Below, piece after piece: positions 23,041 through 64,000 of a stretch of 64,000 bases of DNA. Where the stretch lies: contig NW_020289975.1 of the NCBI RefSeq assembly GCF_003144245.1, forward strand, positions 186,001 to 250,000, read 5' to 3'. The position numbers and the translations under genes were made by a program. The DNA is from Jaminaea rosea. Taxonomy: Eukaryota; Basidiomycota; Exobasidiomycetes; Microstromatales. The notes under the pieces are model-generated. The model saw only the letters and a list, made by a program, of their open reading frames with translations, was not told where the DNA came from and made no database searches. Every line of letters starts with the position of its first letter. Position 1 is the stretch's first letter.

Positions 23041-23881
23041 GATCGTGACCACCGCTGCTACTTTGCGTATTGCTGTTGCCGCCGCTGGCCTCCACTCCCT
23101 TCTTTGGAAGAAGTTGCGAGGGAGGCGTCGATGCAAGCAAAGTCAAGTCAAGCCGCGGGGCGTCATCGCGTGAGGGCTCCTCGTCGCCCCTGCCGCCCGC
23201 CTCAGCTCTCGTTGTCCAACACTTGAAGCCGCGTCGCCGCCCAGCTGCAGCTCACAAGAGCGAGCGAGGCAGCGAGGGACGGGACCCTGACTGCTGAGTC
23301 TGAGTCGGCGGGCCACCGAGGCACAGCCAGGCCTTTAGGGCGCCCCGCTCACGAACCTTCGCCCCGTTGGACATCGAGCGTCCATTGAATCGCGGTGAAT
23401 TTCACAGCCTGTCGCTCGCTCATCATTGCAGTGCGTTGCTCGTCCTTGCCAGCTTGCTAGGCGGTCGCTTTTCTTCCCCTTTCATCACTCACCTTTTCCA
23501 TTCCCGTTGTCTCTGCGAAAGCTCCCTTCTTTGGCATCGCTCCTGTGGCCGACTGCTCATTTCGGTAGACTGCCTCATCCAAGGTGGACCCCCTTGCACC
23601 ACCGTCTGCTCCTCGCCTTCGCTTCAAAGGCTTCCAACGGGAGGCCCAACCGCCATTTGCTTGTCCGCTCTTCATCGAGCCGGTCGAAGCCCAGCATCAG
23701 CATCAGCGTCAGCATCTTCATTTCGCCCCCTCTTTCACTTCTTCTCTTCACTACCACTTCTCTCACGACCACAGCACGCCACCATCTGACGATTCGACGA
23801 CAGGATCAAGGCGTTACCGGACGCTCGCTTTGAAATCGCCGGTTGCGCTGTCATTGTCCTACCCCTACATCTTCGTCCGCC
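23041..23881. promoter_or_regulatory. Divergent promoter, MED8 (-) / chitin synthase (+)
   Basis: About 840 bp. The half nearer the chitin synthase (23470-23880) is CT-rich, as is typical of fungal 5' UTRs. No TATA box is evident. Confidence 0.35.
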
Positions 23882-26800
23882 ATGGCAGGCTCATCGTCGA
23901 TGCCAGCGGAGCAATTGACGCACCTGACGTCGCTCTCGTCCCTCAGCGTCGACACCATCTTCTCCACTCTTCGTGACCGCTTCTTTGCTGGCCTCCCCTA
24001 CACGTCCCTCTCCGACTCTGTCCTCGTCTCTGTCAATCCCTTCGCCACCAGCGGTAACCGCAATAGCGACGATGCCCTCCGCGAGTATACTAAACAGTAC
24101 CGCGAGACGAATCGCGCCGCTCGAGGAGCTCCGTTACCACCTCACGTCTTCCAGCTGGCCTGTGACGCCTACTTCTACATGCAGAGAACGGGGCAAGACC
24201 AGATCGTCCTTCTCGCAGGCGAGACGTCTTCGGGCAAGAGCGAGCTCCGTCGTCTGGCCACCCGCATTCTCATCGACCTTAGCGCTGCAGCACCGGGCAA
24301 GAAGGGATGGAAGCTAGCATCACAGATCCCCTCGGGCGACTATCTGCTTGAGTCCTTTGGCAACGCCGCAACCCTCGAGAATGCCAATGCCTCTCGCTTT
24401 GGCAAGTACTCGGAGCTGCAGTTCAACGAGGCAGGCAGGCTCGTAGGATCAAAAACGCTCGACTACTACCTCGAGCGCAGCCGCCTCACAGGCGCTGGAG
24501 GTAGCGACCAAACCTTCCACGCCTTCTATGCTCTCGTCGCGGGAGCATCGGCGGAGGAGAAGACGCACCTCAAGATCCAAGACGGCGCCGACTTTCGCTA
24601 CCTAGGCGGGTTGCGACACAAGGGGGCTGTGCGAGAGGACGCTCTTCGATTCCAGCGCATGAAGCAGGCCTTCAAAAACATCGGTCTCTCGCAGCGTCAC
24701 GTCGCTTCCATCTGTCAGGTCCTCGCTGCCATTCTCCATCTCGGCAACCTCGACTTCTCGCAAGACCATCACCGTACGCAGGATGCGGTCTCGATCCGCA
24801 ATCAAGAAGTCCTCGAGAATGCTGCTGGCTTCCTCGGTGTACCGCCCAAGGATCTCGAGGAGTCCATTGTCCTCAAGACAAAGCTCATCCGCAGCGAGGT
24901 CTGCACCATCGTCCTCGATGCAGATGGCGCTGCCGCCAACCGAGACGAGCTTGCAAAGACGCTCTACTCTCTTCTCTTTGCCTGGCTCAACGAGCATCTG
25001 AATCAGAAGCTCTGCAAGGACACCTTCGAGACGTATATCGGCATCCTCGACCTGCCTGGCCCACAGAGCGCAGCAAAGGGCGGCAACTCTCTCGATCAAT
25101 TCTGCGTCAACTTTGCAAACGAGCGACTGCATCGCTGGATGCTAGCCTCCGTCTTTGAGAAGCGTCGCGACGAATACGCAGATGAGGGCATCTCGCACCT
25201 TTCTCCTGACGTGCCCTTCTTTGACAATGCAGACTGTGTGCGACTCTTCATCAACCAGCCAGGAGGACTCGTCCACATCATGGATGACCAGGCGCGAAGA
25301 ATGCCCAAGAAGTCGGACCATACCATGGTCGAGGCGTTCGGCAAACGATGGGGCAACCACCCCAATTTCAAGGTCGGCGCGGCGGATCGCAGCGGCTTTG
25401 CATCGTTCACCGTCACCCACTTCCATGGTCCTGTCTCGTACAGCAGCGAAGGGTGGCTCGACCGCAATTCAGATGTCGTTAGCCCCGACTTTGTGTCGCT
25501 CCTGCGTGGCTCCACCGACGCTAATGGCGACAGACGACCCTCTGATGCCACACTGCTCAACAATGGCTCTGCCGACGTGTCTGCAGGGTCGACTGTACCC
25601 TTCGTTCGCAGCCTCTTCAAGAGCGACGCTCTCAAGACGCAAGCGCATCCAAAGGACGACCACACTGTCGTTGCAGCTCAGCAGTCAGCGAAGCCCATGC
25701 GTGCACCCTCAACCCGCAGGCCCAACCGCGCCACCAGTATCAAACGCGTGGGGACGAAGCGCAGCGCCGCAACGTCTTCTGCTGCCGCCAATGAGGATTC
25801 GGATGACGAGCAGCACGACGGCAAGAAGGCAGCAGTCACGGGAGTGGCAGGCGAGTTTCGCAGTGCGCTTGACACGCTCTTCAAGACGATGGACGAGGCC
25901 AAAGCCTGGACGATCCTCTGTCTGCGTCCCAACGACAATCAGATGCCCAACCAATTCGAGGCGCGTATCGTCAAGCAGCAGATCAAGACTTATTGCCTTA
26001 CCGAGATGGCTCGCAAGCTCGTCAACGAGTACAGCGTCTCGATGACGCACGAGGAGTTCTGCGAACGGTACGCCGACAATCCGTCACTCAATGCTGTCAG
26101 CATGAAAGCGGCCACGGGAGGCTACGCCAAGCAGAAGTTCGCCGCTGCCAAAGAGGTCATGAGCTGGACGGACGCAGAGGCTGCCAGTGGCCGTCTGAAG
26201 ATCTTCCTCTCGCACACAGCCTTCCGCGAGCTGGAAGACGAGCTTCGCGCCGTCGATCCTGAAGAGCAGGCTGCCAACGAGCGCAAAGCTCAGCTTGACG
26301 CCGAGGCGGCTGCAAAGGGCGCCAACGACCCCTTTTCGCCCTTTGGTGCCCTCTCAGGTGACAATACCAATGATCCCGAATCACCGCAGCAACTCTTTGG
26401 ACTCGGCGACCCCTTCAAGGAGATGTCGAGCTCAGCGCTGCCCCTCGTCGGTGGAGCTGAGACGCCTGGCTTCACGGGCGATGACAACAAGAGCATGATG
26501 AGCGAGTGGGCAGCACCCAATCTCAACTTCACGCATCAACGCAACGACTCCGTGGCCCCTTCTGAGGCCTATGCCCCCTCACGCAACATGTTCGCCGGAA
26601 GTGGCGCTCGCGGCATCGATGAGAAGAGGCAGAGTGGTGGTCTAGAAGCGGGCGGCTTTTCTGGCGCAGGCAACAATGGGGAGGTGGCCGAAGAAGTCGG
26701 CGAATCAGGCTCTCGTCGTCGCTGGGTCGCCTGGACATGGATGCTTACCTTCTGGGTCCCCTCCTTCATGCTCTCCCGTGCTGGCTCGATGAAGCGCCCC

Positions 26801-29800
26801 GATATTCGCATGGCCTGGAGGGAGAAGCTCGCCATCAACATCATGATTTGGTTCATCTGCGGCTGCGCCGTCTTTGTCATCGCTGTCCTGGGCAACGTCA
26901 TCTGCCCGAAGGAGTACGTATACACACCCTCGGAGCTGGCGAATCACAAGAGCGACGATCAAGCTTTCACTGCCATTCGAGGCGAGGTATTTGACCTCAC
27001 GAACGTCATCAAGACGCATCGCAGCGTCATCCCCGTCGTGAGCGCCGATCGTCTCAACGCTTACGCAGGCACGGACTCGACGTCCCTCTTCCCTGTCCAG
27101 GTCAACGCGCTCTGCAACGGAGTCGACGGCAGCGTCAGCCCATGGGTGCAGCTCTCTGGCGGCAACACGACAGACGCCAATGCGCAGTACCACGACTTCC
27201 GCTCATTCCATACTGAGGATGCTCGCCCTGACTGGTACTACCAGTCGATGTGGCTCATGAGGAGCAATTTCCGAGTCGGCTTCATCGGCTACGACCCTTC
27301 CGCGATCTCGGATTTGCTCGACGACGGGCGCGCCGTTGCCGTCTATCGTGGAGGTGTGTACGATGTAACCGACTACGTCAAGCAAGGCAACAAGGGCGTC
27401 ATCACCGCTCCCGAGGGCACGCAAGCGCCCGCCGACACGAATGCTGCCTTCATGTCTGGGCCCATCATCGATCTCATTGTCCAGAATCCGGGCAAGGACA
27501 TCACGCAGCAACTCGACTCTCTGCCCCTCGGCAACGACGTTCTCGACCGCCAACGCGTGTGCCTGCGCAACCTCTTCTACATCGGCAAGCCCGACGGGCG
27601 CAACTCCCCTCGCTGCCAGTTCTCGAGGTACATTCTCCTCGCTCTGTCCATCGTCATGGTCTCGATCATCGGCTTCAAGTTCCTGGCAGCCCTGCAGTTC
27701 TCCCGCATCCGCAAGCCGGAAGACCATGACCGCTTCGTCATCTGTCAGGTGCCGTGCTACACCGAGGGAGAAGAGTCCATGCGCAAGACCATTGACTCGC
27801 TCGCTGCGCTCAAGTACGACGACAAGCGCAAACTCCTCTTCATCATCTGCGACGGCATGATCGTTGGATCGGGCAATGATCGTCCTACCCCGCGCATCGT
27901 GCTCGACATCCTGGGGGTAGACCCTAATCTCGACCCAGAGCCGCTAAGCTTCCAGTCCATCGGCGAGGGAAGCAAGCAGCACAACCTGGCCAAAGTGTAC
28001 AGCGGTCTCTACGAGTACTCGGGGCACGTCGTGCCTTATGTCGTTGTTGTAAAGGTCGGCAAGCCAACGGAGCGTTCTCGCCCCGGTAACAGAGGCAAGC
28101 GTGACTCCCAGCTGGTGCTGATGCACTTCCTCAACAAGGTCCACTTTGGCTCGGCGATGAACCCCATGGAGCTGGAGATCTATCACCAGATCAAGAATAT
28201 CATTGGCGTTAATCCCAGCTTCTACGAGTATCTGCTGCAGGTGGACGCTGATACCACGGTGGACCCGTACTGTCTCGGCCATTTCGTCTCCTCTTTCATC
28301 AACGACAAGAAGATCATCGGACTCTGTGGAGAGACCGCCCTTTCCAACGCCAAGCAGAGCTTCGTGACCATGCTCCAGGTCTACGAGTACTACATTTCGC
28401 ATTACCTCGTCAAGGCCTTCGAGAGTCTCTTCGGCTCAGTCACCTGCTTGCCCGGTTGTTTCTCAATGTTCAGGCTCAGGACGCCCGACACGCACCGTCC
28501 TCTCTTCATCGCCAATCGCGTCGTGGACGACTACTCCGAGAATCGTGTCGACACGCTCCACACCAAGAACCTGTTGTCCCTCGGAGAGGATCGCTACCTG
28601 ACCACACTCGTCCTCAAGCACTTTGGCGACTACAAGACGACCTTCGTCCGCGCAGGCAAAGCCAAGACGTCCGCTCCCGACGACATGGGCGTCCTCCTTT
28701 CGCAGCGTCGTCGCTGGATCAACTCTACAATCCACAACCTCGTCGAGCTTATCAAGACGCCCGGACTGTGCGGGTTCTGCCTCTTCTCGATGCGCTTCAT
28801 CGTCTTCATCGACTTGCTATCGACGATCATTGCCCCCGTCACCGTGGCTTACATCGTCTATCTCATCGTCCTCGTCTCCACCACCGACCAGACGGTACCC
28901 GTCACCTCGCTGATCATGCTCGCCGCAATCTACGGTCTGCAAGCGCTTATCTTCATTCTCAACCGCAAGTTCGAGATGGTAGGCTGGATGATCATCTACA
29001 TCATCGGCATCCCTATTTGGAGCTTCTTCCTGCCCCTCTACTCCTTCTGGCACATGGATGACTTCTCCTGGGGTAACACGCGCGTCGTCCGCGGTGAAAA
29101 GGGCCAGCGTGTCCTTCTCCATGACGAAGGCAAGTTCGACCCCTCAGAGATTCCCCTCCGAACGTGGGAAGACTACGAGAACGACCTGTGGGAGAAGAAC
29201 TCGGCCCGCTCCATTGGCGAGATCTTGATGTCCGCGCAGCACAAGAAATCGTACGACGCTGCGTCGATGTACAGCCGCAGCGGAATGGGCGGCAACAGGA
29301 GTGGGCCGGGGTCTCAGTACGAGCCCAGCCTGTACGGGCAGACGCCGATGCTGCCTCGCTCGACGAGCTTCGCGAACAGTATCGGCGGACAGAGCGGCTA
29401 CTTCGGAGGGGCAGATCCGAGGCAGAGCACCTTCTCCCTCGGAGGCATGCCGGGAGCAGGGTACGGCACGCCCGCCGCATCTATGTACGGCTTCCCTCAG
29501 CAGCAGCAGCAGCAACAGCCAGGCTACTTTACCGGCACGCCGTCCATGTACGGTGCACCCCAAGGCGGCTTCATGAGCCCGAGCAGCTCGATGCCCATGA
29601 TGGCCAGCGGAAGCGGCAGCAACAACAACGCCTTCGCCACGCCGCGCCAATCAATGGGTAGCATCGGCAACCTCATAGACGCTAGCACCCCTTCGCCGAG
29701 TCGCTCCGCTGCTGGAACACCAGCTGGAGTCGCTCCTCGCACCCGCGTCGGCCCACCCTCGGACGCAGAGATCGCCAGCGACCTTCGCTCCCTGATCGCG

Positions 29801-29941
29801 AATGCAGACCTGAATACGCTATCGAGAAAGGCGCTCCGTGAACAGCTGCAGGCCAGGTATGGTCCTTCAGTGGACTTGGGCGAGAAGAAGGACTTTATCA
29901 AGGAGACGATTGCGAGGATTCTGGAGGAAGGAGGGGAGTAA
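23882..29941 (+). CDS. Class V chitin synthase with N-terminal myosin motor-like domain (MCS1-like)
   Basis: Single uninterrupted exon, 2019 residues from the ATG in CCATGGC. Order of parts: myosin motor-like domain (~15-785) with P-loop GETSSGKSE (~113), switch I NANASRFGKY (~167) and switch II DLPGPQ (~390); membrane segments (~949-965 and ~983-1009); a cytochrome b5-like fold (~1028, AIRGEVFDLTNVI); a third segment (~1250-1272); the chitin synthase domain (~1280-1730) with VPCYTEGEESM, DADTTVDPY, LPGCFSMFRLR, EDRYLTTL and QRRRWINST (QxxRW); further membrane helices; a Gln/Gly/Ser-rich linker (seven Gln in a row); and a C-terminal DEK_C domain (~1958-2018). It polymerises UDP-GlcNAc into cell-wall chitin at growing tips. 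The closest known type is Ustilago Mcs1. The motor motifs deviate from active myosins (GESGAGKT, DIxGFE), so ATPase activity is doubtful. Confidence 0.95.
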   Translation: MAGSSSMPAEQLTHLTSLSSLSVDTIFSTLRDRFFAGLPYTSLSDSVLVSVNPFATSGNRNSDDALREYTKQYRETNRAARGAPLPPHVFQLACDAYFYMQRTGQDQIVLLAGETSSGKSELRRLATRILIDLSAAAPGKKGWKLASQIPSGDYLLESFGNAATLENANASRFGKYSELQFNEAGRLVGSKTLDYYLERSRLTGAGGSDQTFHAFYALVAGASAEEKTHLKIQDGADFRYLGGLRHKGAVREDALRFQRMKQAFKNIGLSQRHVASICQVLAAILHLGNLDFSQDHHRTQDAVSIRNQEVLENAAGFLGVPPKDLEESIVLKTKLIRSEVCTIVLDADGAAANRDELAKTLYSLLFAWLNEHLNQKLCKDTFETYIGILDLPGPQSAAKGGNSLDQFCVNFANERLHRWMLASVFEKRRDEYADEGISHLSPDVPFFDNADCVRLFINQPGGLVHIMDDQARRMPKKSDHTMVEAFGKRWGNHPNFKVGAADRSGFASFTVTHFHGPVSYSSEGWLDRNSDVVSPDFVSLLRGSTDANGDRRPSDATLLNNGSADVSAGSTVPFVRSLFKSDALKTQAHPKDDHTVVAAQQSAKPMRAPSTRRPNRATSIKRVGTKRSAATSSAAANEDSDDEQHDGKKAAVTGVAGEFRSALDTLFKTMDEAKAWTILCLRPNDNQMPNQFEARIVKQQIKTYCLTEMARKLVNEYSVSMTHEEFCERYADNPSLNAVSMKAATGGYAKQKFAAAKEVMSWTDAEAASGRLKIFLSHTAFRELEDELRAVDPEEQAANERKAQLDAEAAAKGANDPFSPFGALSGDNTNDPESPQQLFGLGDPFKEMSSSALPLVGGAETPGFTGDDNKSMMSEWAAPNLNFTHQRNDSVAPSEAYAPSRNMFAGSGARGIDEKRQSGGLEAGGFSGAGNNGEVAEEVGESGSRRRWVAWTWMLTFWVPSFMLSRAGSMKRPDIRMAWREKLAINIMIWFICGCAVFVIAVLGNVICPKEYVYTPSELANHKSDDQAFTAIRGEVFDLTNVIKTHRSVIPVVSADRLNAYAGTDSTSLFPVQVNALCNGVDGSVSPWVQLSGGNTTDANAQYHDFRSFHTEDARPDWYYQSMWLMRSNFRVGFIGYDPSAISDLLDDGRAVAVYRGGVYDVTDYVKQGNKGVITAPEGTQAPADTNAAFMSGPIIDLIVQNPGKDITQQLDSLPLGNDVLDRQRVCLRNLFYIGKPDGRNSPRCQFSRYILLALSIVMVSIIGFKFLAALQFSRIRKPEDHDRFVICQVPCYTEGEESMRKTIDSLAALKYDDKRKLLFIICDGMIVGSGNDRPTPRIVLDILGVDPNLDPEPLSFQSIGEGSKQHNLAKVYSGLYEYSGHVVPYVVVVKVGKPTERSRPGNRGKRDSQLVLMHFLNKVHFGSAMNPMELEIYHQIKNIIGVNPSFYEYLLQVDADTTVDPYCLGHFVSSFINDKKIIGLCGETALSNAKQSFVTMLQVYEYYISHYLVKAFESLFGSVTCLPGCFSMFRLRTPDTHRPLFIANRVVDDYSENRVDTLHTKNLLSLGEDRYLTTLVLKHFGDYKTTFVRAGKAKTSAPDDMGVLLSQRRRWINSTIHNLVELIKTPGLCGFCLFSMRFIVFIDLLSTIIAPVTVAYIVYLIVLVSTTDQTVPVTSLIMLAAIYGLQALIFILNRKFEMVGWMIIYIIGIPIWSFFLPLYSFWHMDDFSWGNTRVVRGEKGQRVLLHDEGKFDPSEIPLRTWEDYENDLWEKNSARSIGEILMSAQHKKSYDAASMYSRSGMGGNRSGPGSQYEPSLYGQTPMLPRSTSFANSIGGQSGYFGGADPRQSTFSLGGMPGAGYGTPAASMYGFPQQQQQQQPGYFTGTPSMYGAPQGGFMSPSSSMPMMASGSGSNNNAFATPRQSMGSIGNLIDASTPSPSRSAAGTPAGVAPRTRVGPPSDAEIASDLRSLIANADLNTLSRKALREQLQARYGPSVDLGEKKDFIKETIARILEEGGE

Positions 29942-56577: not shown

Positions 56578-58153
56578 ATGGCACCCATCGCGACATCCAC
56601 TGACGGCGCAGCCGTACCCAAGCTGAGCGCCACTGCCACTGCCGTCAAGGGCATCGCGCAGACCACGCTGGCCGCTTCAACGGCGCAGCCTCTGGGTGCT
56701 GGCCTCTCGAGCAAGGAAATCATCCATCTTGAGCATGAGCATGCTGCCCACAAGTAAGTGTAGACAGGACACCATTATATGCATCCTGCTTTGAATGTAA
56801 TGCTAACCTCCCTATTTCCTCGCTCGCCCAGCTACCACCCCCTCCCCTGCGTCTTCGATCGTGCCTCCGGTGCTCACGTCTGGGACCCAGAGGGCAAGCA
56901 GTACCTCGACTTCCTCTCAGCATACAGCGCCGTCAACCAAGGGCACTGCCACCCGAAGATCGTCGGCGCTCTCATGGCGCAGGCACAGAGATTGACCTTG
57001 TCCTCAAGAGCCTTCTACTCGAGCACCTTTGGGCCTTTTGCCAAGAAGATTACGGAGATGATGGGGTACGATATGGTGCTGCCGATGAACACGGGCGTGG
57101 AGGCCGTCGTGAGCAGCGCGTCGTGAGCCAAGTAGAGAGGATAGCGTGAGGCTGACATGTGGTCACGTCCACTTTCGCCGCCAGGAAACGGCCATCAAGC
57201 TCGCCCGCAAGTGGGGCTACAAGCACAAGGGCATCCCCGAAAATCAAGCAATCGTCCTGTCCGCAGAAGGCAACTTCCACGGGCGAAGTATCGCCATCAT
57301 ATCGATGTCCACCGACCCTGACTCACGCGTAGGCTACGGACCCTTTGTCCCCAACCTCTCCCCCGGCGTCGACTCAATGCGCATCAGGCACGGCCACGCC
57401 GAAGACCTCGAAGCCGTGCTAGAGAAGCACGGCGACCGAGTAGCAGCGTTCCTTGTCGAGCCCATCCAGGGCGAAGCGGGAATTATGGTCCCGCCGACCG
57501 GCTATTTGCAGAAGGTCAGGGAGCTCTGCACTAAGCACAAAGTCCTGCTCATCTGCGACGAGATTCAAACTGGTCTCGGGCGAACGGGCAGAATGTTGGC
57601 CGTTGAGCATGAGGGAATCCGTCCTGACATGATCACGCTGGGCAAGGCTCTTTCGGGGGGTATCATGCCGGTGTCTGCTGTGCTGGGTGACAAGGAAGTC
57701 ATGCTCAGCATGGAGCCGGGAACGCATGGCTCGACCTTTGGCGCGAATCCGCTCGGATGCACCGTTGCGCTGGCCGCGCTCGAGGTGCTCAAGGAGGAGA
57801 AGCTGTGCGAACGGGCTGACAGACTCGGCGCCCAGTTCCGCGAGGAGATGACGAGCTTCATGAAGAGTGGTCAGGCTCCCCACCTCGTCGAGGTTCGAGG
57901 GCGTGGGCTGATGAACGCCATTGTGTTGGACTCGGCGCAGAGCAAGAAGAAGAGGTCGGCATGGCAGCTCTGCTTGCTGCTCAAGGAGAGAGGGGTCCTC
58001 TGCAAGCCTACGCACGACAACGTGGTCAGGCTGACCCCGCCGCTAGTCATCACTGACGAGGACATGCAGAGGGGCACGGAGATCATCAAGAGGGCACTGC
58101 TGGAGATTGATGAGATCGAGAGCGTGCCAGGTGAGGAGGAGGGGGTACACTGA
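56578..58153 (+). CDS. CAR2: Ornithine aminotransferase
   Basis: Three exons (56578-56753, 56832-57108, 57185-58153), 473 residues. It transfers the delta-amino group of ornithine to 2-oxoglutarate, giving glutamate semialdehyde and glutamate, in arginine catabolism. Class III aminotransferase marks are [40 protein letters not shown] (restored across intron 2), [38 protein letters not shown] and the PLP lysine in [22 protein letters not shown] follows. The ~45-residue N-terminal extension (Thr/Ala-rich, few Arg) is not a clear mitochondrial presequence; yeast Car2 is cytosolic. Convergent with ECO1, 164 bp apart. Confidence 0.95.
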
Positions 58154-58317
58154 GCACGAGTTGCGCCTCAATGTCAATGCTATCATGCACGTCACATCCC
58201 GAGGTCATGAACGAGTGGGCTTCGAATGCAGATGATGGTATAGAGTGATTGCAAGCAAATGTGTGTGAGAGACGAAGCAATTACTGAGCTCCGTCCTAGC
58301 CTGCGCCGTCTCGCGTC

Positions 58318-59646
58318 TCATTCCTCGAAGACGACCAACCTGTTCTCCCCTGCCTGGCCCCTCTGTGCCTCCAACCACGCCCTGGCCAATCTGGCACCAG
58401 ACTCCGTCGGCTGACTGAAGGCCAGAAGCGGTACCCCCTTCTCCCCATTTGATCCCTCATCGTTCGCACGCGACCTGAGGTCTTCCCTTAGCTGCTTCGC
58501 CCCCACGCCGTACAGTGAATGCTCGACGACGGTGTCGAGAAGACGGTGAGCTAAACCGCAGCGTCGCAGCGAGGGGAGTACGTAGATACGGTGCACGCCC
58601 AATGGTGGGGTTTGCGAAGCCGAGAGGCGTGAAGAGGAGAGGCGCAGGCCGTCGCTGCCACCAGGCACCGAGGGTTCAGCTACTTCGGCGTCGTCATCCT
58701 CTATCACGTCCCTCGCCTTGCCCTCCTCGATACGCGTCGCAACAACGGCACCTCCGAGGACGCGACCGGCGCATACGGCCAAGAAGAGCTTGAGGGCGGG
58801 CGAAGCCGTGTCGTTTCCCTGATCGTCGTGGTGTTGAGGCCTAGGGAAGAGGGAAGCAGCGCCCAGAGCCGTATCGATTGTCTCGAGGACTTCGCACAGC
58901 TTGCGGTGCAGGAAAGCCTCGCCATTACCATTGCCGCTTCCAGAGCGTCCGGTGGATGAGGCGGCAGACAAAGATGTCCCAAGGCTGTCGGGCAGGTTAT
59001 ACCGCACGAGTTGTACGGGGATCTTGTCGCCACCAACGGCTGTCTTTGCGACCGACGTCGAAGAGAAGACGGTGTCCAGGTCGAAGCCTACGCTCGGCGA
59101 AGCCCCTCCTCCGGCCGCACCGCTGACTCCTGCTCCACCTTGTCCTTTCATCGCCCCATCCACAATGCCTCTCCCTAGCGCCTTTACCACCTTCTCTCTG
59201 CCCAGACCAATCGTGCCGACAACACTCCCTGCTTTGCTGAGTGCCGCACTCGTTGCCATAGGCCACTCGACGCCCTTCAGCACCCGATCATGATGGCGGA
59301 CATGCAGCGCACTGTCCTCCGGGCTAGACCGGTCGTAGGACATGGAGCAGTCTTTGCACGTCACTTGTATCTTCTGGCCTAGGTCGAGAATGAGCTGTTC
59401 AGCGCGGGGCTGCGTGGTCTGAGCAGGCTTTTGCTTTTTGGTGCGCTTGATGCTCCCGCCGATCGAAGTGGGACGCCTGCTTGCAGTGGCGGGCGTAGGA
59501 CTGCTCCTTGAGCGCTTGAGCGGTACAGGCGAGGATGGCGGGCCGTCGTTCTCTTCGTCGCTCCCATCCTCATCTTCTCCGTCCGCGAGGTGGCTCCTCT
59601 TGGCCGAAGAGGACATAGCGCCTCGAACAGACACGGGCGTTGACAT
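58318..59646 (-). CDS. ECO1: Cohesin acetyltransferase ECO1 (ESCO/Ctf7), possibly the C-terminal part of an MSH6 fusion
   Basis: As a separate gene: ATG at 59646, one exon, 442 residues. The protein acetylates Smc3 during S phase to establish sister-chromatid cohesion. A basic, Ser/Pro-rich N-terminus leads to QLILDLGQKIQVTCKDC, then a C2H2-type zinc finger (CKDC, then HVRHH, ~95-121), as in Eco1. The acetyltransferase core lies at the C-terminus (~365-442): GVHRIYVLPSLRRCGLAHRL (acetyl-CoA loop) and LLAFSQPTESGARLARAWL. A Ser/Gly/Ala-rich insert of ~180 residues and extra loops lengthen it relative to yeast Eco1 (281). The ATG is only 149 bp after the MSH6 stop on the same strand. The frame stays open upstream of the ATG to a good acceptor at 59715, which links it in frame to MSH6 (see that entry). 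Confidence 0.88.
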   Translation of the reverse strand: MSTPVSVRGAMSSSAKRSHLADGEDEDGSDEENDGPPSSPVPLKRSRSSPTPATASRRPTSIGGSIKRTKKQKPAQTTQPRAEQLILDLGQKIQVTCKDCSMSYDRSSPEDSALHVRHHDRVLKGVEWPMATSAALSKAGSVVGTIGLGREKVVKALGRGIVDGAMKGQGGAGVSGAAGGGASPSVGFDLDTVFSSTSVAKTAVGGDKIPVQLVRYNLPDSLGTSLSAASSTGRSGSGNGNGEAFLHRKLCEVLETIDTALGAASLFPRPQHHDDQGNDTASPALKLFLAVCAGRVLGGAVVATRIEEGKARDVIEDDDAEVAEPSVPGGSDGLRLSSSRLSASQTPPLGVHRIYVLPSLRRCGLAHRLLDTVVEHSLYGVGAKQLREDLRSRANDEGSNGEKGVPLLAFSQPTESGARLARAWLEAQRGQAGENRLVVFEE

Positions 59647-59714
59647 TGGCCCCACCCTGCGTCGACCGTACGTGGCTGGTGAGCTTGCGATTCGGGAAGG
59701 CAGAGGGCTGGCGT

Positions 59715-59803
59715 CTGTAGAGGTGCGCAGGCGAGGCAGAACGAGGGATCAGCTGATGTTTCATTGAATTGTGTGGAATGTGACCGTCGCGGCGTCTACG
59801 TAC
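59715..59803 (-). other. Candidate intron that would fuse MSH6 to ECO1 in frame
   Basis: On the minus strand GTACGT (59803-59798) begins six codons... more precisely two codons before the MSH6 stop ends, and CTCTACAG ends at 59715. A CTGAT branch-like site lies about 35 nt before the acceptor, followed by a pyrimidine-rich stretch. Length 89 nt fits the 65-94 nt of nearly all other introns here. Splicing joins ...SSSPT to Y-ASPLPSRIASSPATYG and then the ECO1 sequence, keeping the frame (total 5109 coding nt, divisible by three). The MSH6 stop TAG (59798-59796) lies inside this intron. Confidence 0.5.
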
Positions 59804-62800
59804 AAGTGGGAGAAGACGAAGGACCCGCAGCCGCAGCCGCGTCCTCCATAATGATGTCCCCGCCGTCTTCGCCCTCGCATTTTTGTGCCACCCTCTGAAT
59901 CTGCGCCCTGATGACTTCGAGGCGCGATGCGACCTGTCGGGGCTCAACGTCCATCGTCTCCACGGCTGCGCGGCTCTCTCCCTTCGATTGCCCGAGCCCA
60001 AAGAGGTAGGCAAAGTCACTGAGTGTGGCCATAGGAAGTGCGGAGGTGGTCCTCTGCTGTTGATGCTTCTTGGTGTCCTCTGCAAATTCGCGCGAGATGT
60101 CGTTGGCCCGGTCGCAGATGCTCTCCGGCACGCCGGCGAGATGGGCCACCTGCGTTCCGTAGGATGACTCTGCGACCCCGTCAACGAGCCGATAGGTGAA
60201 GACTACTTGGCGATTCTCATCGTCGACGACGACGGCCATGTGCTTGTTGGCGCAGCGCGGATACCCCTGGAAATCGTATGCAAGCTGGAGGTAGTGGGTG
60301 AGGAAGAAGCAGAGACAACGCGTGCGCGCAATCAGGTGGTGGAGCACAGCGTGCGCAATGGCGTGACCGTCGAATGTACTGGTGCCGCGGCCGAGCTCGT
60401 CCATGATGACGAGAGAGCGAGGCGTGCAGTCCTTGACGATGCGACTTGCTTCGAGCATTTCGACCATGAAGGTGGAGCTATTCTTGAAGATCTGGTCGTT
60501 GGCGCCCATTCGTGTGCAGACGCGATCTGCTGGTGAGATGCGGGCAGACTTGGCCGGGACGCGGCAGCCCAGCTGAGCAAGGATGACGCCTGTAGCCGTC
60601 GTGCGAGCCGTCGTGCTCTTACCAGCCATGTTGCCACCGGTGAGGAGGATGACCTCAGCGCTGTCGCCGCCCATTTTGATGTCGTTGGCGATGAAGTCGG
60701 TGGAACCGGCGATGCAGGGGTGGCGTAGCTCTTCAAAGTCCACCAGGGCCGTGTCGCATTCGACAAGTTCCGGTCGGCAGGTCGGCTCCCCCATGGCGTA
60801 GGAAGCCAGGCCCAAGCTTTGCAGACAGTCGATTTCGGCCAAGGCTCGAACGGCGGCGAGATAGGAGGATGCGTTCTCATTGAAGCGGTCAAATAAGCCG
60901 GCGTGGAACTCCTTGAGTGCAGCAAGGCGAGTCTCGCGCGCCTCCTTCAGCTTGAGGACAAGAGCTCGCACCGTCGGAGAATAGTAGCCCGTCGTCGCCG
61001 TCGTGCTTGACATGACCTGCCAATCATTGGGCACCTTGGTCTTGACCGGCACCTCGATTTGGTAGATCTCGTTAGTTCCTCGATGCTTCCAGTTGCAGCC
61101 GCCCTTCTTTTCTGCGCCGAGCTTGAGCAGCTTGCGGTAGCTTCGAAGCTCGCTCTCCAAGTCTCCTTCGACTTCATCGATGTGCGCCTGCGCGGTATCA
61201 TAGGCCTCGTCAACATCCTCACGAGGTTGGAAGGAGCCGTCTTCGTTGGCGATAAAGGAATCATCGAGCTCGCTGGCAAGGGAGGCAACATCCGGCACCG
61301 AATTGAGCAGCTCGCGGACCAAGGCAGACTTGAAATCAGCGCTGGCGTGCTTCAGGTCATTGACGATGGGCATGAGTTTCTTGAAGGCCGTGAGCAGACG
61401 CGTGAAGTCGCCAGGCTTGATCTTCCCTGAGTAGACCTTGGGTAGCAATCGCTCAAAGTCGGGCAACTTCTTCAGCGTAGCAAAGCAGTCTTCAAACTCG
61501 GCATTGCCTAGGAGATCGTCGACGGCGTCTTGTCTAGCCTTGATAGCGTCGACGTCGCAGAGTGGATGTGTGAGCCAGTGCTTGAAGAGGCGCTTGCCGG
61601 CGGGAGTGACGCAGCGGTTGAGGAGGCGATGAAGAGTACCGGCGTCGGAGCCATCTTCATTCTGTAGGACGCAGAGGTGGCTGAGGGTATTGGCGTCGAG
61701 GTGCATAGGTCGCCCGCTGGCCGTCCTGCGGTGCTCGAGCAGGCTGAAGTTCTTTGATGATGTGAGGTCTTTGAGGAGCGATAGTTGGTTGAGGTAGGCA
61801 AACATGCCCGCCATAGACGACATGACTATCTCTTTGTCTTGCATGGCGACGATGGCCTCCGGAATCTGGGCCTCGTCGCCGCCAAAGAGGTTGACAAGCT
61901 CGTCCTCAGTCTCTTCACGGGACAGCCACTCCTTGCCCTCGCGCAGCATCGTGATGCGGCAATCGGCGCTAGTGCAATTGCGGAGTAGGCGAAGTGTGTC
62001 CTTGCTGAGCTGACCTTTTTTGTGAATGACCTCCTTGACGCGCAGAGAGAGCAGAAGGGTCTCCAGCTGGCTACGCTGCTGATCGTCGACCCAGTGCGAG
62101 AGGCCAAAGTCACTCGTAGCAGCGTCCAGCGAGCAGATGCCAAAGGAGACAATCTCGCGGCCTTCTTCATCCTCACCGATCTCCTCCACAATGGCAATGC
62201 AGTAGGTGGCGAGGTCGTCTTCCAAGCCGTCGATTTGCGTCGCCGAAGTCATGACGTGGCGTAGCTCTCGTCGGACGATGTCGCCGCTGCTCTTGTCTCG
62301 CATCCCCTTTGCAACGGCAGTCTCCATCTGGTCGACGCGGCCGACCTTGTAGCCTAGAGCGAGGAGCTTGGTAGCGAAGAGATCAAAGGAAGCTTCAGGC
62401 ACGCCGACCATGGGCATCCTACCTCGATCAGTGAGCTTGAGGTCGAGCTCACGATGGACCGTGTAGGCGTCCTCCAGAAACATCTCGTAGAATTTGCCCT
62501 TTTGAAACATGAGGATCGTGTCCATGTTGTTTTGCCTGCGCGTAGGAGAGCGATGTTGATGCATTTAGTCAGCTAACCGCATCTGCAATGCTGTATCCCC
62601 TCGTCCGAGTACTCACTTGATCTCAAAATACTGCTTCTCGAAGTTGGTGAATTTGCCCCACCATGCGGATGGGATGCGTAGAGTGCGAGGATCGAAGTCG
62701 GCGTCGCCTGGGCGGTTGCCGTCACTGTCTCTTCGATCGACAAGGAAGGGAAAGCCGGGCTCTTTGGCGCCCCCTGCCTGCCCGGGAATAGGCGTAGAGC

Positions 62801-63680
62801 CACCCGGAGTTGCAGAGGAGGACGAGCTCCTCGCAGGAACGAGAGGCGGACGTGAAGACGACGACGAGGCTGAGGGAAGGCTCGGGCGAGACTTCTTGGC
62901 TGGTGGCTGGCCCGTCTTAGCTGCCTTTTTGCGAGGTGGAGGAGTGGGCGATGCTGAGCCCGATGCATCCGACATCGATGCATCGCCATCGTCGTCCTCA
63001 TCGTCATCCTCACTGTCGGAGACGGCCTGCGCCTTCCTACTCTTGTTCGCTGTGTCATCGTAGTCAGAGCCATCGTCTTGGTCTGATCCGGACTCGTAGT
63101 ACGTCTTGCGCTTGGCAGCCGCACCTCGCTGCGACGCGAGAGCGAGTCAGAACAGTCAATATGGTCAGCTCAGGTCTTTCATGCGCATACAGCCAGCTCG
63201 GTCACCACTCACCCTACGCGACGTGGTTGGCATCAAGTCCTCTTCGTCGTCATCATCCTCGTCCATCGTGGCTGAGAGTGGACTGCTGGCCGGAGGCGTA
63301 GGCTCACCACGAGGGACAGCCTTAGGAGTCGTCGCCGTCTTGACAGCGGCTTTGGACTGAGCAACGGCGCTGTTGCTGGCGTTGGTGCCAAGCCTGCTGG
63401 AAGGCGACTGCTTCGAGCTGGACGCGACAGGAGAGACGGAGCCACCGGATACGGTGGAGGGAGGCGAGGGCACAGAGCCCCTCTTGGTATACGATGTCGA
63501 CGACGATGAGGACGACGACGCGGTCTGCTTCTTTGCTGTACTGGAAGCGGCGCTGGGGGCAGTAGAGGCAGGGGCACGAGGAGGCTGAGAAGCTCCGCCA
63601 GGCGCAGCGTCGACTTTCTTGAAGAAGCTAAGCAGCGTGCCTTTGCCATTGGCCGGCTTCGCCGCCGGCTGCGATGGCAT
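59796..63680 (-). CDS. MSH6: DNA mismatch repair ATPase MSH6 (MutS homologue)
   Basis: Three exons on the minus strand (63680-63213, 63128-62617, 62535-59796), 1239 residues if the stop at 59796 is used; a fourth exon through 59714-58318 would instead give a 1702-residue MSH6-ECO1 product. With MSH2, Msh6 forms MutS-alpha, which recognises mismatches and small loops behind the replication fork. A PCNA-binding (PIP) box lies at residues ~13-22 (KGTLLSFFKK), as in known Msh6. A disordered, charged N-terminal region follows. The mismatch-contact motif is GKFYEMF (Phe-x-Glu, ~342-344). The ATPase has Walker A TGGNMAGKSTT (~960), Walker B VIMDELGRGTST and STFMVEM. The ATG at 63680 was preferred over an upstream in-frame ATG at 63932 because it places the PIP box at the N-terminus, as in orthologues. 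Confidence 0.95.
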
Positions 63681-64000
63681 GATGGCAATGGCGACGAGTG
63701 CGCGGGACGCTGGCACGAGAAGCACGAGACGGGGATGGAAGGAAAGAGTTGGTGGGTCGAGCAAGAGAGCGTTGAACGCGAGCGGAGCGACGCGACCCAG
63801 CTTCAATTTCAAGGTCCGCGCTCGCTCGTCCGCCCAGAAGAGGCGTGTCACGGAACGGAAGAAGTGAGAATGGCATTGGTCAATCCTCCTGGCCCTGAAC
63901 CTTCGCCTCTCGAGGTGCCATTGACGGTGCATGCTGTATCTGAAATTTTGACTCTGTCTTCACAATAGGATCGCAATTCCATGAGGAGGTTCAAAGTCTC
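63681..64000. promoter_or_regulatory. Upstream region of MSH6
   Basis: About 320 bp to the right edge. It should hold the MSH6 promoter. The minus-strand frame stays open to an ATG at 63932 but has no conserved content. I looked for MluI-type ACGCGT boxes and saw none; ACGCGA occurs near 63776. Confidence 0.35.

Follow-up and report, generated by a model that had tools for sequence, protein, structure and literature searches.

A probable fusion of MSH6 to the cohesin acetyltransferase ECO1 across a predicted intron that contains the MSH6 stop codon in Jaminaea rosea

A 64,000-nucleotide stretch of Jaminaea rosea DNA (the window; contig NW_020289975.1, positions 186,001 to 250,000) carries, on its minus strand, tandem reading frames for the mismatch repair protein MSH6 and the cohesin acetyltransferase ECO1, and the question is whether they are two genes or one. 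An earlier note had proposed that the MSH6 stop codon sits inside an intron whose removal fuses the frames, and the elements of this proposal are as described: 149 nt separate the MSH6 stop from the ECO1 ATG, the coordinates of the 89-nt intron are exact, and its removal leaves a single 1702-aa frame without a stop, the segment between the acceptor and the ECO1 ATG being open (Table 1). If the fusion intron is left unspliced, MSH6 (63680 to 59796) is 1239 aa long, and ECO1 (59646 to 58318) is 442 aa from its ATG. The two introns within MSH6, which were placed by eye, resemble the proposed fusion intron in length and have GTGAGT donors, CTGAC sites and CAG acceptors. We consider it probable, from sequence comparison, that MSH6 and ECO1 constitute one four-exon gene in which the phase-1 intron is spliced to give the 1702-aa protein. 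Such a protein would consist, in order, of the mismatch-recognition protein MSH6, a low-complexity linker, and the ECO1 zinc finger and acetyltransferase.

The earlier note also took the two frames to be unusually close, the other tandem gaps being given as about 490 bp to 2.6 kb. With frames that run from stop to stop over 250 codons or more as a proxy for genes, this pair is the closest on the same strand within the window (48 nt, the next gap being 315 nt); some of the other frames may be exons of one gene. Rfam returned no match at the gathering threshold in 58000-64000, and thus no known structured RNA.

Table 1. Features of the MSH6-ECO1 locus, in window coordinates.
Feature	Position	Strand	Remarks
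MSH6 exon 1	63213..63680	-	start ATG at 63680; TLLSFF PIP-box-like motif
MSH6 intron 1, 84 nt, GTGAGT..CAG	63129..63212	-	placed by eye
MSH6 exon 2	62617..63128	-	
MSH6 intron 2, 81 nt, GTGAGT..CAG	62536..62616	-	placed by eye
MSH6 exon 3, MutS domains I-V	59804..62535	-	PF01624, PF05188, PF05192, PF05190, PF00488 above cut-off
Proposed fusion intron, 89 nt, phase 1, GTACGT donor, CTGAT branch-like site, CTCTACAG acceptor; contains MSH6 stop	59715..59803	-	donor-like end pattern in relatives
TAG, MSH6 stop upon intron retention	59796..59798	-	overlaps donor GTACGT (59803-59798)
Exon 4: linker (YASPLPSRIASSPATYGRRRVGP) and ECO1 (PIP-like EQLILDLGQ, C2H2 zinc finger, acetyltransferase)	58318..59714	-	PF13878, PF13880 above cut-off; ESCO-like fold
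ATG read as ECO1 start	59644..59646	-	internal if the fusion is real
ECO1 stop	58320-58318	-	

The MSH6 part shares all five MutS domains with the MutS-alpha subunit, the five corresponding Pfam families all scoring above cut-off; its nearest named matches among those listed are MSH6 and it groups with MSH6-named records in the tree, the difference from a typical MSH6 being the C-terminal ECO1 that it would carry if spliced. MSH6 proteins have an N-terminal PIP box of consensus QxxLxxFF, for which the window protein has, by eye, KGTLLSFF, with K at the usual Q position. ECO1 scores 50 bits against PF13878 (cut-off 27) and 56.4 bits against PF13880 (cut-off 22.8), and its sequence matches solved ESCO2 and ESCO1, chiefly over the zinc finger. 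Directly before the zinc finger, EQLILDLGQ aligns with DQLVIDAGQ of ESCO2, a stretch that we take to be a putative PIP box. A PCNA-binding box sited before the zinc finger is needed for S-phase acetylation by Eco1 (PMC10656103). A structural model of ECO1 built from 17 sequences has a mean pLDDT of 66.6, with extended regions of low confidence separating the conserved parts, and its 12 matches in the PDB at E <= 0.001 are all ESCO1, ESCO2 or xEco2 (3.0e-8 to 2.6e-6; TM by target 0.57-0.72, rmsd 5.5-9.2). ECO1 looks intact, and is like ECO1/ESCO1/ESCO2 in zinc finger, acetyltransferase domain, fold and, putatively, its PIP-like stretch, although it probably lacks a free N-terminus. A second ECO1 copy was considered and rejected, since the 16.6-Mb assembly yields no PF13880 match beyond two fragments of this one gene. 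An SMC-family locus of the genome contains KKDEY, which is like the SMC3-type target.

Could a joining intron have arisen by chance between two close genes? When the 149-nt gap was shuffled with its dinucleotides preserved and the real donor kept, 6.7% of 4000 shuffles contained a frame-joining intron of the form GTRNGT..CTRAY..YAG, rising to 12.3% when any GT was accepted as donor; with a random-codon tail added to the shuffled gap, the frequency fell to 0.2% of 4000. Of the ORFs that reach 300 codons in 264 kb of sampled genome, 78 in all, MSH6 alone has the ending NGT-RCG-TRR. The cysteine codon at the MSH6 end is TGT, as are 25% of the 398 cysteine codons in the sampled ORFs, and GTACGT occurs once at ORF ends against 0.46 expected, hexamer counts being too sparse to gauge GTACGT use in the genome. 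Taken alone, these figures are no more than suggestive. A splice-like sequence that arose by chance, together with a gene-prediction error in the one annotated fusion (see below), would fit the 6.7% obtained with the donor given, but fits poorly with the 0.2% obtained once the tail is also random and with the end pattern and adjacency seen in relatives. We regard it as very improbable and, on the shuffle and ORF-end figures and the end pattern, rejected it as the main reading.

The ends of MSH6 in relatives also bear on the junction. The 120 best of 208 MSH6 matches were taken, and 112 of 121 rows were used in the count. Among the matches listed, an ending of [CSR][TA] before the stop is present in 28 of 29 complete tails from three clades: 6/6 in the Microstromatales-like clade (the window included), 8/9 in the clade with Meira (Exobasidiales), and 14/14 in the Ustilaginales. 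Elsewhere it is present in 5/79, made up of 2/17 in the Malassezia clade and 3/62 outside rows, of which 52 were classed by their listed name or by identity outside the range of the clades rather than by the tree and were unscreened for completeness (one, P0149, ends inside the ATPase domain); four other Ustilaginomycotina-side rows, none of which fits (0/4), were omitted from this comparison. The tree was computed with FastTree from 70 rows, 10 of these outgroup. Fisher's test gives about 1e-19 for 28/29 against 5/79, a figure that overstates the case because rows within a clade are kin and the pattern was defined after the tails had been seen. A further nine rows, every one belonging to these three clades, were set aside because the frame ends differently or the record is partial (P0036, P0048, P0053, P0056, P0058, P0060, P0082, P0084 and P0129), and if all nine are scored as misses the three clades give 28/38. 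The tails that do not fit include P0080, which ends RDV and is the sole complete non-fitting tail of the Meira clade among the matches listed, as well as Ceraceosorus and P0077, P0083 and P0123.

In the 28 fitting tails the preceding 18 positions have 6-28% pairwise identity, and the last two have 61-64%, in part by construction since only fitting tails enter the calculation. At these two positions the residues are restricted to C, S or R and then T or A. Since NGT codes for C, S, R or G and RCG for T or A, this set of ends is what is expected of a conserved phase-1 GTRCGT donor, with the codons in relatives deduced from the amino acids. A conserved C-terminal peptide motif of MSH6 is disfavored, as the variation at both end positions stays within the amino acids specified by NGT and RCG. 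The arrangement looks to be old within the Ustilaginomycotina (the Microstromatales, the Meira clade and the Ustilaginales), and the scarcity of the pattern in the Malassezia clade suggests that the fusion was lost or is lacking there.

The earlier note further suggested that the locus has two products, with retention of the intron giving MSH6 alone and splicing giving MSH6-ECO1; in such a locus alternative splicing would tune the ratio. The stop does lie within the donor, the unspliced frame encodes a complete MSH6, and many database MSH6 records among the matches listed end exactly at the donor stop. However, the stop is supplied by the GTRCGTRR sequence itself, arising with a phase-1 donor and requiring no regulation, so that its presence does not show regulated retention, and the retained form would bear ECO1 as a very long 3' UTR. 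We view tuned production of both proteins as possible but doubtful. Because the donor includes the stop, the locus is also easily annotated as MSH6 alone.

One annotated protein has the proposed architecture. P0002, a 1648-aa record from Sympodiomycopsis kandeliae, contains the five MutS families and both ECO1 families, and among 7985 candidates listed it is the single match at E <= 1 to the ECO1 part of the joined protein, in a search scored on the ECO1 part alone and admitting proteins of about 936-2978 aa. It is like the window locus in domain order and in the place of the junction, and differs in that the record carries no protein name. Its MSH6 tail runs for 112 residues from ESSYGT to the junction cysteine, compared with 98-138 in unfused tails, and this cysteine occupies the place where other MSH6s end in [CSR][TA] and a stop. 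On the MSH6 tree the window, S. kandeliae and Parajaminaea phylloscopi cluster together, the latter two being Microstromatales. The joined record may nonetheless reflect the merging of neighboring genes by a gene predictor.

Adjacency of MSH6 and ECO1 is also suggested in the Ustilaginales clade, in which the MSH6s of three pairs sit whose MSH6 and ECO1 matches lie on contigs of equal size (834540, 11587 and 78990 bases). At 834540 bases, the pair comprising Ustilago trichophora MSH6 and an ECO1 record, equal size shows that both are on one contig but not that they are close, whereas at 11587 bases it shows closeness. Three of 12 close ECO1 matches have such a partner, and the remaining nine are without one among the MSH6 matches listed. 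Against a fusion stand an ECO1 annotated as a separate protein (P0011) and 17 named non-Malassezia Ustilaginomycotina MSH6 records among the matches listed, Parajaminaea phylloscopi included, that have no ECO1 domains; these MSH6-only records are an unfair census of annotations, since the admitted length of about 507-1613 aa bars fusions of the size of P0002.

If instead the genes are separate, the ECO1 promoter would lie in the MSH6 3' end, the intron would belong to the ECO1 5' leader or the MSH6 3' UTR, and translation would start at the ATG at 59646 or nearby. The record P0011 agrees with this, as do the presence of the ATG and a Met just before the ECO1 N-terminal motif described below in five ECO1 sequences (P0006, P0009, P0010, P0013 and P0002). 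Separate genes would not, however, demand that three clades retain the donor phase where MSH6 ends, and would leave unexplained both P0002 and the ECO1-like sequence upstream of the ATG, and we therefore judge this arrangement unlikely.

That upstream sequence is seen most clearly in six Ustilaginales-type ECO1 frames (P0006, P0007, P0009, P0010, P0013 and P0014), which share [TR]TYAGR.RR at a position that precedes the start annotated in P0011. In the window, ATYGRRR lies between the acceptor and the ECO1 ATG with no in-frame Met before it, a short match to a loosely conserved motif; P0002 and P0004 show SYGG, a looser version. Between the apparent acceptor and the motif, P0004, P0007 and P0014 likewise have no Met. 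The first residues of P0004 and P0014 can be read by eye, from the amino acids, as the end of an intron whose ACAG acceptor shares the phase seen in the window. The 16 more distant ECO1s (P0015-P0030) comprise six with TYSR, TYGR or TYGK at residues 3-9, two with TYAR or TYSR close to residue 70, one with TYSL close to the start, and others that are without a clear motif. The start of P0011 is perhaps annotated too far downstream, as related frames are conserved upstream of it. As a separate observation, the TY[SG][RK]-type start of several fungal ECO1s (among P0002-P0030) resembles the [M/hydrophobic]xxYG[K/R] motif of Wapl, described in PMC10656103, and could contribute to an ECO1-Pds5 contact.

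Returning to the single fused gene, the relatives support the earlier note's reading of a fusion well, through P0002, the end pattern, the equal-sized contigs and the ECO1-like sequence before the ATG; its further idea, that acetylation is targeted through the MSH6 PIP box, is possible but perhaps redundant. In J. rosea the mRNA would be spliced at the fusion intron and the fused protein would be the main or only source of ECO1. MSH2-MSH6 behind the fork could then carry the acetyltransferase to newly replicated, PCNA-bearing DNA near cohesin, where it would acetylate the SMC3 KKD lysines, much as Eso1 ties Eco1 to DNA polymerase eta. The redundancy may arise because ECO1 keeps its own PIP-like stretch before the zinc finger.

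Fission yeast Eso1 is a natural fusion with Pol eta at the N-terminus of Eco1 and, when the Pol eta part is missing, remains in effect competent for S-phase cohesion, as reported in PMC3542068. The window gene would be alike in that Eco1 is C-terminal to a repair or damage-tolerance protein, and differs in that the partner is MSH6 and that the junction intron contains the partner's stop. By analogy with the cohesion-proficient truncation of Eso1, the MSH6 part may also be no more than a passenger, or may be relevant under damage. A Pol eta-ECO1 fusion in this genome was considered and rejected: the neighbor of ECO1 is MSH6, PF13880 is found at this locus only, and the 3.4-3.8 kb of sequence surrounding each of four IMS-family loci showed no ESCO-type zinc finger.

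A search of openly licensed literature, over titles and abstract starts among the matches listed, found no report of an MSH6-ECO1 fusion, nor any paper on the S. kandeliae protein P0002. In a study that includes Ustilaginales (PMC10262431), MSH6 is given as an ordinary gene, that of Ustilago maydis as UMAG_11009, and a term search of its main text does not return the word ECO1. In frog egg extracts MutS-alpha inhibits PCNA unloading after replication (PMC4942255); as Eco1 needs its PCNA-binding box, the fusion offers a testable model in which cohesion and mismatch repair share a post-replicative window.

We see about an even chance that a broader proposal holds, namely that most Ustilaginomycotina other than Malassezia obtain the essential cohesin acetyltransferase solely from an old, lineage-wide fusion, making MSH6 essential and letting cohesion establishment travel with MutS-alpha behind the fork, that this fusion was overlooked through its stop-bearing donor, and that Malassezia lost or never had it. 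If so, mismatch repair would have gained an essential gene in MSH6, which elsewhere is dispensable. The fusion in itself, if real, would give Eco1 a further natural joining to a DNA-repair protein with a partner other than that in Eso1, and would point to mismatch surveillance and cohesion being physically connected. It would also mean that a stop codon in a splice donor can make one gene appear as two in annotations.

Elsewhere in the window, a convergent gene on the plus strand (56779-58153), by eye ornithine aminotransferase-like, ends about 165 nt from the ECO1 stop, and a 2035-codon open frame, also on the plus strand (23834-29941), appears by eye to encode a chitin synthase with a myosin-like head.
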